From Oscillospiraceae bacterium (GTDB lineage: Bacteria; Bacillota; Clostridia; Oscillospirales; Ruminococcaceae): DNA of 64,000 nucleotides. Positions 2,001 to 61,657 of the stretch are shown here, piece after piece (positions within the stretch are counted from its first letter, which is position 1; each line of letters opens with the position of its first letter). The stretch lies in assembly GCA_022791945.1 (NCBI GenBank), contig JAAVZY010000072.1, positions 1 to 64,000 of the forward strand. The letters are read 5' to 3'. A program made the position numbers and the translations under genes. Under the pieces are notes generated by a model. It saw nothing but the letters and a program-made list of their open reading frames with translations. It searched no databases and was not told the origin of the DNA.

Positions 2001-2120
2001 TACAGGAAAGAAGGAAGTACCCCTTATGCCGCATGGCATAAGGGGACTTCCTTCTTTCCTGCGATGAGAATCCAAGGAGGCCCGCCTCCTTGGCGGAGCT
2101 CGAGGCAGAGCCTCGAGGTC
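2001..2120. repeat. Hairpin-mosaic locus A (long hairpin + CCAAGGAGG hairpin + CTCGAGG hairpin)
   Basis: aggaaagaaggaagtaccccttatgcc-gcat-ggcataaggggacttccttctttcct, ccaaggaggc-cc-gcctccttgg, ctcgagg-cagag-cctcgag. Confidence 0.9.
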
Positions 2121-16940: not shown

Positions 16941-17505
16941 GAGCCTGTTCAGAATCTCTGCCTGCATCGAAGGGCAAGGCCGCGAGACTCTGTCTCGCGC
17001 TCTGCGGTGCGTCGTGAAACGACGCACCTAGGAATTCGGCTTCGCCGAATTCTGAGATGCGCCGCTGGCGGCGCATCGGGAAGGGATTCCCCTTGGATTC
17101 CCATTATTTCAAGGGCTTTTTTAAGGGCGGAAAAGGGTGGGGTCAAGTCTGTACAGACTTCCGGCTTTCTGCCACGCAGAGAGTCTGATTCCCGCAGTAC
17201 GCTTTTTTCGTAAAGAAAGAAGCTCTCTCCTGTGTGCGGGGTACTTCCTGTGCCGCACCAGGCTTCCTGCGCAGAGCGGCGCTCGGGACTTTCTGCGTCA
17301 CAGCCTCTGGCCCGCACGTAGGGCTGAATTTTTTCTTTACGAAAAAATGGGTAGGCGGGCGATCGTCCCTGCGGGAAGTATCAGCGAGGCAGGCCCACCC
17401 CCCAAAAAAATTTACGGGAATCCAAGGGGATTTAATCCCCTTGGCAGAGCGCGAGACGGCGTCTCGCGACCTTCCCCCGATACAAAAGAGGCTGAATAGG
17501 CGCTC
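16941..17505. mobile_element. Hairpin-mosaic locus G bounded by IS5-like ends and a TGA target duplication (565 bp)
   Basis: TGA|GAGCCTGTTCAGAATCTC ... GAGGCTGAATAGGCGCTC|TGA; interior has cgcgagactctgtctcgcg, gaattcggcttcgccgaattc, gatgcgccgctggcggcgcatc and others. Confidence 0.8.
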
Positions 17506-22354: not shown

Positions 22355-22856
22355 CCGCTGTTTCCTCCGCAGGCTTTTCCCGATCGAAAAAGACCAGCTT
22401 GATCAGCACCAGCAGGGTGCCCACAACCACGCAGCAGTCAGCAAAGTTGAATATGGCGAAATGGATCAGCCGGAAATCCAGATAGTCGATCACATAGCCA
22501 CGGAAGATCCGGTCAATGAGGTTCCCGATCCCGCCGCCGATGATCAGGCCTGCTGTCCAGAGAAGGAAGGGGCTCCTGAGCCTGCCGCTGAGGATCAGGC
22601 CGGCCAGGGCCAGCAGGATCAGGCCGGTCAGCCCGATGAGGAAGAACGCCTTTCCCTGGAAGATGCCGAAGGCGGCGCCCCGGTTTTCCAGGTAAGTCAG
22701 ATGAAACACGTCCTGGATCAGGGGGAGGGTACCGCCGGGGCGGGGCGGGAGCCGGGTCTGAGCCAGCCATTTGAAGAGCTGATCCAGCCCTACCAGAACC
22801 GCCGCAAAAGCCAGCACCACATACTTGAGCTTATCAGATTTCATACAAACTCCCAT
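22347..22856 (-). CDS. lspA: Signal peptidase II
   Basis: LDQLFKWLAQT; LTYLENRGAAFGIFQG; GGGIGNLIDRIFRGYVIDYLDF; FNFADCCV. Confidence 0.95.
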   Translation of the reverse strand: MGVCMKSDKLKYVVLAFAAVLVGLDQLFKWLAQTRLPPRPGGTLPLIQDVFHLTYLENRGAAFGIFQGKAFFLIGLTGLILLALAGLILSGRLRSPFLLWTAGLIIGGGIGNLIDRIFRGYVIDYLDFRLIHFAIFNFADCCVVVGTLLVLIKLVFFDREKPAEETADA

Positions 22857-22865
22857 TCTATAAGA

Positions 22866-23078
22866 GCAAGACCTTGGGGGCTCCGCCCCCAAGCCTCCGT
22901 CAAAGGGGACTGGTCCCCTTTGGAAACCCATTGTCTTTTTGCGGGGAGTGGGCCGCGGCAGGTACGGCTGGGTCAGCTTGCACGGACGGCCCCTCCCCGC
23001 AAAAAGATGACGGGAATCCAAGGGGGGCCAGCCCCCTTGGCGGAGGCTCGGAGGCGGAGCCTTCGAGGTCTTGCCCTT
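22866..23078. repeat. Hairpin-mosaic locus I with variant stems
   Basis: cttgggggctccgcccccaag; caaaggggactggtccccttt; tctttttgcggggagtgggccg/cggcccctccccgcaaaaaga; ccaaggggggccagcccccttgg. Confidence 0.88.
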
Positions 23079-25842
23079 AGATATTCAGAACCTGGGCGCA
23101 GCGGGGGCAGAGGGAAGAGGCTTCGTGGTGATGGCCGTATTTCCAGCACCGCTCGCACATCTCGCCCTCGGCCCGCTCCACGGTCACGGACACCGTTTCG
23201 CCCTTATATTCGCCTTCTCCCCCGTCGCTGACGCTTACCTGGGAGCAGATCAGGATATCCGGCAGCAGCTCCTGCGCCGCCGCCAGCGTCCCGTACAGCT
23301 CCTGCGGGCAGCAGAGCGTTACCTTAGCCTCTAGGGACTTGCCAATCTGGTTCTCACTCCGCTTCAGCTCCATCGCCTTCTGCACATCGTCCCGCACCAG
23401 GCCGATCAGCTTCCACTTGGCTTCAAAGGCCGGATCTGTCTGAACGTCCACGCTCCTGTACAGCTCGTTCATCAGCACGGAGGTTCGGTTGTCGCCGGCC
23501 CGGTGGGGCATTAGGCCCCAGATTTCATCCGAGGTAAAGGCCAGAATGGGCGCCAGCATCCGGGTCAGGGCGTCCAGAATCGTAAACACCGCTGTCTGGG
23601 CGGATCGGCGGAGACGGCCGTCCGCCTGCTCGCAGTAGAGCCGATCCTTAATGATATCCAGATAGAAGCTGGACATATCCACCACGCAGAAATTGTGAAC
23701 CGCATGGAACACAATGTGGAAATCCATGGCCTCGTAGGCCGCGTTTACCTTTTCCGCCAGCCCCTTCAGCCTGGACAGGGCCAGCCGATCCAGCTCCTCC
23801 AGCTCCCCGAAGGGCACCGCGTCCCTGTCCGGATCGAAATCGTACAGGTTGCCGATCAGGTACTTGGCGGTGTTGCGGATCTTCCGGTAGGCGTCCGCCA
23901 GCTGCTTCAGCAGCTCCTTGGACAGCCGGATATCCGACTGATAATCAGAGGAAGCGATCCACAGCCGCAGGATGTCCGCGCCATACTGCTTGATCACATC
24001 CAGGGGATCGATGGCGTTGCCGGCGGATTTGTGCATGGCCCGGCCCTCGCCGTCCAGCACCATTCCGTGGGTGCAGACCGCCTTGTAGGGCGCTTTCCCG
24101 GTGGTGGCCACAGAGGTCAGCAGGGAGGACTGGAACCAGCCCCGGTACTGATCGTTCCCCTCCAGATAGAGGTCCGCGGGCCACTGGAGCTGTCCCCGCT
24201 CCTCCAGCACGGCCGCGTGGGAGACGCCGCTGTCAAACCACACGTCCAGGATGTCCATCTCCTTGACGAACTCCCCGCAGCCGCAGGCGCACTTCACCCC
24301 TGCGGGGATGATCTCGGACGCGTCGCGGAGGAACCAGGCGTCGGAGCCCTCCCGGCGGAAGAGCTCCGCAATGGCGGAGATAGTTTCCTCCGTGACAACA
24401 GGCTTGCCGCAGTCCCTGCAGTAGACAATCGGGATGGGAACGCCCCATTTCCGCTGGCGGGAGATGCACCAGTCGCTCCGGTCCCGGATCATGGCGTCGA
24501 TCCGCTTCTCGCCCCAGTCGGGGATCCACTTGATCTCCGGCAGGACGGACAGGGCCGCCTCCCGGAACCCGTCGATGGAGCAGAACCACTGCTCCGTGGC
24601 CCGGAACAGGATGGGCTGCTTGCACCGCCAGCAGTGGGGGTACTGGTGGATGATCTTCTCCAGGGCAAACAGATGCCCGGTTTCCTCCAGATGCCGGGCG
24701 ATGGCCTTGTTGGCGTCCCCGGTCATCAGGCCGGCGAAGGGGCCCGCCTCCTTGGTGAGACGGCCGCTGCTGTCCACCGGCACCACCACCGGCAGCTCCG
24801 GATACCGGGTGCAGACCTCAAAGTCCTCCACGCCGTGCCCGGGAGCGGTGTGTACGCAGCCGGTGCCGCTGTCCAGGGTCACGTGCTCCCCTACGATGAT
24901 CAGGGAATCCCGATCCAGGAAGGGGTGCCGGGTGGTCAGGCGCTCCAGCTCGCTGCCCCGGAAGCTGCCCACTGTCTCGTATTCGGTGATCCCGGCGGCC
25001 TTCATGGAGGACTCCACCAGCTGCCGGGCCATGACGTACCACTCCCCGTTGGCCTTTGCCAGGGTGTACTCATACTCCGGCCCCAGGCAGATGGCCACGT
25101 TCCCCGGCAGGGTCCAGGTGGTGGTGGTCCAGATCACGAACCAGGTTTTGCTCAGATCCGCGCCCAGGGCGGTGAACAGGCCCTTGTCATCCCTGACCGG
25201 GAACTTCACGTAGATGGAATGGCAGGGATCCTCCGCATACTCGATCTCCGCCTCCGCCAGGGCGGTGCCGCAGTCGGTACACCAGTAGACCGGCTTCAGG
25301 CCCTTGTATACATAGCCCTTCTGGGCCATTTTTCCGAACAGCTCCACCTCTTTGGCCTCGAATTCGGGCAGGAGGGTGATGTAGGGATTGTCAAAATCCC
25401 CCAGCACTCCCAGGCTCTTGAACTCCGCCTTCTGGGTTTCCACATAGGACATGGCGAACTCCCGGCAGAGCTTCCGCAGGGAGACAGGATCGATGGAGGT
25501 GGGATCCACCCCGTCCTTTTTCAGAGCCTTCAGCTCGATGGGCAGGCCGTGGGTGTCCCAGCCGGGCACGTAGGGGGCCTGATAGCCGGACATGTTCCGG
25601 TATTTGACCACAATATCCTTGAGGATCTTATTCAGGGCCGTGCCCAGGTGGATATCGCCGTTGGCGTAGGGAGGGCCGTCATGGAGGATATACTTAGGCT
25701 TACCCTCATTGTGGGCGATCAGCTGATCATAAAGCCGCTGCTCCTCCCACTCCTTGAATTTCTGCGGCTCCCGGGCGGGCAGGCTGCCCCGCATGGGAAA
25801 ATCGGTTTTCGGAAGGTTCAGCGTATCGTTATAATCTGCCAT
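23077..25842 (-). CDS. ileS: Isoleucyl-tRNA synthetase
   Basis: [37 protein letters not shown]-term [20 protein letters not shown]. Confidence 0.97.
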
Positions 25843-54051: not shown

Positions 54052-54246
54052 GAAGGGCAAGGCCGCGAGGGCTCTGCCCTCGCGCACCCGCCAAGGGGAA
54101 GGGATTCCCATTATTTTAAGGGCGGAAAAGGGGTGGAGTTAAGTCTGTACAGACTTGAACCCCACCCCCACCCCAAAAAGAGACGGGAATCCAAGGGGAC
54201 GCGTCCCCTTGGCAGGAGCTCGAGGGCAGAGCCCTTGAGGTCTTGC
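54052..54246. repeat. Hairpin-mosaic locus Q
   Basis: gcgagggctctgccctcgc; agtctgtacagact; ccaaggggacgcgtccccttgg; ctcgagggcagagcccttgag. Confidence 0.9.
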
Positions 54247-55659: not shown

Positions 55660-55695
55660 CTGTCATTACCTCCATAGTATATTTCGTAAGGGACT

Positions 55696-55907
55696 AAGAC
55701 CTCGAGGGCTCCGCCCCCGAGCCTCCGCCAAGGGGGCGCACCCCCTTGGATGCCCGTTACAGGGTTGAGGGGAGGGACGCCGCCATGCACAGTGCGCCGA
55801 TCGGCATCGGGATAGCGGCGGCGTCCCTCCCCTCAACCCTGCGATGAGAATCCAAGGAGACGCGTCTCCTTGGCAGAGGTTTGGGGACAGAGTCCCCAAG
55901 GTCTTAC
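55696..55907. repeat. Hairpin-mosaic locus R with exchanged long stem
   Basis: ccaagggggcgcacccccttgg; cagggttgaggggagggacgccgcc...ggcggcgtccctcccctcaaccctg (25 bp perfect); ccaaggagacgcgtctccttgg; tttggggacagagtccccaag. Confidence 0.9.
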
Positions 55908-61194: not shown

Positions 61195-61657
61195 GGAGTC
61201 TCTGCGGGAACTGGCTCCCCTTGGATTCCCATCTTTTGGGGGTGGGGGACCTGCCTCGCTGGTACTCCCCGCAGAGACGATCGCCCGCCTACCCATTTTT
61301 TCGTAAAGAAAAAATGGGTAGGCGGGCTGCGCAGGGGCTGCGACGCAGAGGGCTTCGAGCGTGTTCTGCGCAGATTTTCTGCGCGGTGCAGGAAGTATCC
61401 CGCACCCGGGAGGGAGCTTTTTTCTTTACGAAAAAAGCGTACTGCGGGAATCAGACTGCCTGCGTGGCAGAAGGCCGGAAGTCTGTACAGGCTCAACCCC
61501 ACCCCTTTTCCGCCCTTAAAAAATAATGGGAATCCAAGGGGAATCCCTCCCCCATGCGCCGCTGGCGGCGCATCTCAGAATTCGGCGAAGCCGAATTCCT
61601 AGGTGCGTCGTGAAACGACGCACCGCAGAGACGCGAGACAGCGTCTCGCGGCCTTGA
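61195..61657. repeat. Hairpin-mosaic locus T, including a perfect 19-bp hairpin
   Basis: cccgcctacccattttttc-gtaaa-gaaaaaatgggtaggcggg; gcttttttctttacgaaaaaagc; gatgcgccgctggcggcgcatc variant; gaattcggcgaagccgaattc; gcgagacagcgtctcgc. Confidence 0.93.

Follow-up and report, generated by a model that had tools for sequence, protein, structure and literature searches.

The window, by which we mean the whole stretch of 64,000 nt analysed here, contains two minus-strand genes, GH25 and SLT, that each end in an element composed of hairpins (all element coordinates refer to the + strand). The element at the SLT gene (site 2, 55695-55906) is complete, with the hairpin order B'-A'-long stem-A-B, and matches the long-stem covariance model R1 at E=9e-18. 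Its arms of 90 nt are 80% complementary. Hairpin B' (55701-55721) is covered by a minus-strand match (55681-55760) to R2, a model of the A-B module, and is followed by hairpin A' (CCAAGGGGG-CGCA-CCCCCTTGG, 55728-55749), a perfect 25-bp long stem, CAGGGTTGAGGGGAGGGACGCCGCC, with a 32-nt loop (55760-55841), hairpin A (55852-55873) and hairpin B (55880-55899). The stop codon of the SLT gene, TAA at 55904-55906, lies at the end of the element.

At the GH25 gene, the element is left-truncated (site 1, 1990-2123): the B'-A' half is absent, while the long stem, A and B are kept. Site 1 matches R1 at C128:1990-2074 (E=1e-11). Its long stem, CAGGAAAGAAGGAAGT-a-CCCCTTATGCC, has one bulge and a closing CCTG (2003-2061), and is followed by hairpin A (CCAAGGAGG/CCTCCTTGG, 2072-2093; R2 match 2061-2137) and hairpin B (CTCGAGGC-AGA-GCCTCGAG, 2099-2117). 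The GH25 stop codon, TAA at 2121-2123 on the minus strand, falls within the element end. The sequence directly to the left, at 1700-1960, is a remnant that matches HTH_21 at 27.6 bits, just short of the Pfam cut-off (28.1); matches of this kind occur in IS3-family proteins. A third long-stem element, also complete, is found at 22853-23087 (stem TCTTTTTGCGGGGAGTGGGCCG.., R1 match ~22919-23022, E=4e-8).

The first-pass annotation had paired sites 1 and 2 as hairpins with common flanks and unrelated stems, and both hairpins are present in the window sequence as claimed: CAGG-(27-pair stem, one bulge)-CCTG at 2003-2061 and CAGGG-(perfect 25-bp stem)-CCCTG at 55760-55841, each directly followed by GCGATGAGAATCCAAGGAG. 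Within the window, this 19-nt tag (≤3 mismatches) occurs at these two sites only, against a chance expectation of 0.06. The flanks are identical at both sites but not unique to them, since the tag is a variant of a core, GGGAATCCAAGG, that has 731 matches with ≤1 mismatch in the 2.75 Mb of the genome (14 for the reversed control).

A connected family of long stems

A whole-genome search with a 17-nt tag (≤2 mismatches) returned seven places, five of which show the ACAGG-stem-CCTG arrangement, namely sites 1 and 2 and three further copies (C87:6865, C83:1512 and C38:3346). Model R1 was built from these five tagged copies, with loops shortened in two of them, and finds 16 distinct loci in the genome at E≤1e-5. 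Most of the 16 copies have the hairpin order B'-A'-long stem-A-B and end near AAGGGCAAGACC...GGTCTTGCCCTT; the long-stem element is a foldback of hairpins in this order.

Compared directly, the arms of sites 1 and 2 show weak likeness (p=0.096), yet copies C87 and C83 connect the two stems. The arm of C87 shows significant similarity to each of the other four tagged arms (p≤0.0005) and the C83 stem equals the site 2 stem except for one base pair, giving a chain from the window stem ending at 2061 via C87 and C83 to the one ending at 55841. A minimum spanning tree connects all 16 stems, with 58-96% identical pairs per edge. The stems are hence divergent versions of one ancestor, and neither the view of them as unrelated nor that of foldback segments acquired or replaced at a fixed slot is borne out by this one connected family of ~16 copies. 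A search for a source likewise found neither stem elsewhere in the genome as single-copy DNA. Two matches with 3 mismatches were rejected as sources, one lying in apparent coding DNA and the other in a non-palindromic intergenic spot. Sites 1 and 2 are distant copies of one repeat, dispersed over the ends of genes in this genome of a gut-type member of the Clostridia, and not a swap between unrelated pieces of DNA.

The long stems differ from each other mainly by paired changes. Along the spanning tree, 66 of the 78 stem-pair changes are two-sided and preserve Watson-Crick pairing, nine are one-sided and three are of other kinds, in counts that exclude the first MAFFT palindrome alignments (A1, A2), which were poor. 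A single edge, leading to the diverged copy C5:464, accounts for five of the nine one-sided changes. Among the two-sided changes, 44 of 66 are transversion-type and have no G-U intermediate. The earlier proposal that the difference is not readily explained by ordinary point mutation is thereby upheld. In the five-copy alignment (A3), 18 pairs are two-sided and the covariation was matched by none of 500 shuffles. Alignment A5 (32 strand reads of the 16 copies) has 247 two-sided cells compared to 93 in shuffles, with the reservation that it was fitted to the structure, and so leans towards pairing, and that kinship among copies inflates its cell counts. Near-perfect hairpins are also obtained when each copy is folded alone. 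The closest pair, site 2 and C83, differs by one paired change in the stem and ~7 positions in the loop, and the foot of the long stem is mostly a block, either CAGG or TCTT. Sites 1 and 2 look unrelated because both strands of the stem change together.

Related hairpins, known repeat classes and gene ends

Hairpins A and B form a wider family. The A-B module is present in several hundred copies in this genome (223 R2 matches in 409 kb), and most copies of the core are mosaics with other cores. Variants of A and B reassort almost freely with respect to each other (mutual information 0.653 vs 0.514 ± 0.084, p=0.05), while variants of hairpin A are tied to the adjacent core. Mosaic elements, in which sub-modules such as TTTTTTCTTTACGAAAAAA, AAGTCTGTACAGACTT, GAATTCGGCGAAGCCGAATTC and GATGCGCCGC.. 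recur between A/B ends, are seen in the window at 17099-17450, 51077, 54057-54246 and 61227-61610 and throughout stretches L038-L056, and account for much of the intergenic sequence in the DNA examined, which comprised the window and ~345 kb of further stretches.

Beyond this genome, the exact 14-mer, found 631 times here, is absent from three genus mates, and no other genome among 199 of the order has more than one occurrence. R2 matches are found in 55 of 299 family genomes, where ≤15 candidates per genome were scored and counts are lower bounds; the genus mates G001, G002, G004 and G007 gave no match. Three carriers (G324, G012 and G455) show the same long stem-A-B series with a genome-specific long stem. 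The modularity suggested in the first-pass annotation can be retained as far as A and B variants reassort and genome-specific long stems precede the A-B tail, but not as a swapping-in of unrelated stems. The genome-specific stems of these carriers (stretches L223-L256) also show paired variation. R1 gave no convincing match in 148 other family genomes, and a weak match in G319 was rejected as a family copy, because that hairpin stands alone, with neither A nor B beside it. An exact 20-mer was not found in public species genomes, and no match to the element was found in the phages and plasmids searched; exact-pattern matches in IMG/VR were dismissed because they lack the hairpin context and their number is close to chance. 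The elements belong to a hairpin-repeat superfamily in Oscillospirales that is strongly expanded in one species. No earlier description of the element family was found in the open-licence literature, and Rfam at gathering score returned no family for the element and only a tRNA in the window.

With many non-coding, foldable intergenic copies, the element is of a known kind, a bacterial interspersed palindromic repeat, in which the paired change of the stem is unusual and testable. REP, BIME and REPIN elements resemble it as high-copy extragenic palindromes that are arranged as mosaics and lie either between convergent genes or downstream of a gene (PMC3733652, PMC2817692). In contrast to these, the element is ~210 bp long, comprises several hairpins, has a long stem that varies by paired changes and resides in a genome in which no Y1/RAYT transposase was found. 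REPs are 20-40 bp palindromes with a GTAG or CGTC tag, and inspection by eye showed no such tag at the foot of the hairpins. MITE-like and SLS repeats (RUP, BOX, ERIC and the PMC2267715 families) are likewise small, non-coding and interspersed, have inverted repeats at their ends and conserve a secondary structure, and the AAGGGCAAGACC...GGTCTTGCCCTT ends here constitute terminal inverted repeats as in MITEs. Unlike in those repeats, the A, B and core hairpins occur here in discrete, reassorting variants.

At most of the 16 long-stem loci, an ORF stops ≤~6 nt from an element end, nearly always with TAA, a codon that accounts for ~30% of stops in the DNA examined. That the element itself might supply TAA stops was considered; the near-universality does not extend outside the long-stem elements (TAA at 34% of A-B family ends vs 30%). 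Stop codons abut long-stem elements at, for example, the left ends of L164, L172, L175, L183, L186 and L187 and at sites 1 and 2 in the window, and the stop often lies inside TAAGGGCAAGACC. In 65 of 322 ORFs (≥120 aa, 409 kb), a B end follows the stop within 60 nt. From these positions in the sequence, we infer that the element might be transcribed as a 3'-end structure, although the location at stop codons may reflect survival bias instead of function. The absence of a U tract argues against a standard intrinsic terminator at site 2, where no GC-rich stem with a U tract was found. At site 1, the intrinsic-terminator consensus has one match inside the stem, whose tail is the stem arm itself. 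In sister genomes with visible synteny, the M18 peptidase/SLT junction that corresponds to site 2, the one junction compared, spans a few tens of nt and is element-free. Hence the site 2 element was probably gained in this lineage, in a comparison with distant sisters that are too diverged for a target site duplication to be read.

Possible origins of the paired stem changes

With ~16 natural replicas of a ~25-bp stem and several hundred copies of the flanking hairpins, this one genome bears on the question of how perfect hairpins stay paired while they diverge in sequence. The reading we favor, with a probability of roughly 0.6, is that one interspersed foldback repeat gave rise to sites 1 and 2 as diverged copies, whose stems have been rewritten by arm-to-arm copying. 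The arms would fold back during replication and one arm would be copied from the other, by template switching or palindrome correction, so that a change in one arm, be it a mutation or a short tract, is passed on to the opposite arm. In this way the stem could remain near-perfect while its sequence drifts, and less complementary flanks would be rewritten less. The element itself would be a structural repeat, neither coding nor autonomous, that mRNAs carry in their 3' ends, and its mobiliser would be something other than a Y1/RAYT transposase that can be recognised in the assembly. That hairpins arise and are maintained by template switching has been argued before (PMC8794818). The hairpins described there also show paired multi-base changes with the stem kept perfect; the process was inferred there for RNA genes, whereas we propose it for a bacterial interspersed repeat family. 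The paired changes and the CAGG/TCTT foot blocks fit arm-to-arm copying, and paired stem changes with few one-sided intermediates are what we find, a pattern that is not exclusive to template switching.

Template-switch copying between the arms is our preferred mechanism and stepwise compensation under selection its main rival. According to the latter, the hairpin is selected as an RNA or DNA structure and each mutation is repaired at a second site, with intermediates quickly lost. We regard this as possible, with clearly lower odds than arm-to-arm copying. Retention of the stem while its sequence varies would be expected, hairpins A and B covary too, hairpin B has G-U variants (UG 10 and GU 7 cells), and intermediates lost fast under strong selection would leave a similar picture. 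In the long stem, however, paired changes outnumber one-sided ones by 66 to 9, and the 44 transversion-type changes had no G-U route. The exchange of cassettes, in which unrelated foldback segments are acquired at a fixed slot, would account for identical flanks around unlike stems at sites 1 and 2, for the CAGG and TCTT stem-base blocks that differ as a unit, for one G455 copy (L248) with a quite different stem and for the reassortment of A and B variants. Against it speak the intermediate copies that connect the two stems and the failure to find either stem elsewhere in the genome, which make it improbable.

Two further explanations have very little probability. As in REPs, the element is a high-copy extragenic paired palindrome at gene 3' ends (PMC3733652), as would befit a REP/BIME-type element mobilised by RAYT (a Y1 HUH transposase); yet it is much longer than a 20-40 bp REP, and Y1_Tnp was not found in its own genome nor, at E≤0.001, in four of the nine other carriers of related elements (G012, G253, G483 and G293). 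An assembly artefact or chimera might be suspected in a draft genome of 157 contigs, but 16 loci at various gene junctions agree in their anatomy and the three-hairpin series recurs in other genomes.

Since paired changes exceed one-sided ones ~7 to 1, strains would offer a test of template switching; the present comparison covers one genome per species. A bolder reading, which we consider doubtful and entertain only speculatively, is that of a family-wide mobile element of three hairpins in which the long-stem slot is actively rewritten, both arms together, by fold-back copying, and modules reassort among hundreds of copies. If true, this would amount to a modular hairpin-exchange system across a bacterial family that operates without a known transposase. 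Through its location at gene ends, the superfamily may also influence genome assembly and the 3' ends of mRNAs. Finally, among the 16 long stems the 5' arm often has a purine-rich middle (GAGGGGAGGGGG), and triplex or G-quadruplex forms might be possible; intrastrand triplex repeats have been described in bacteria (PMC4666352).
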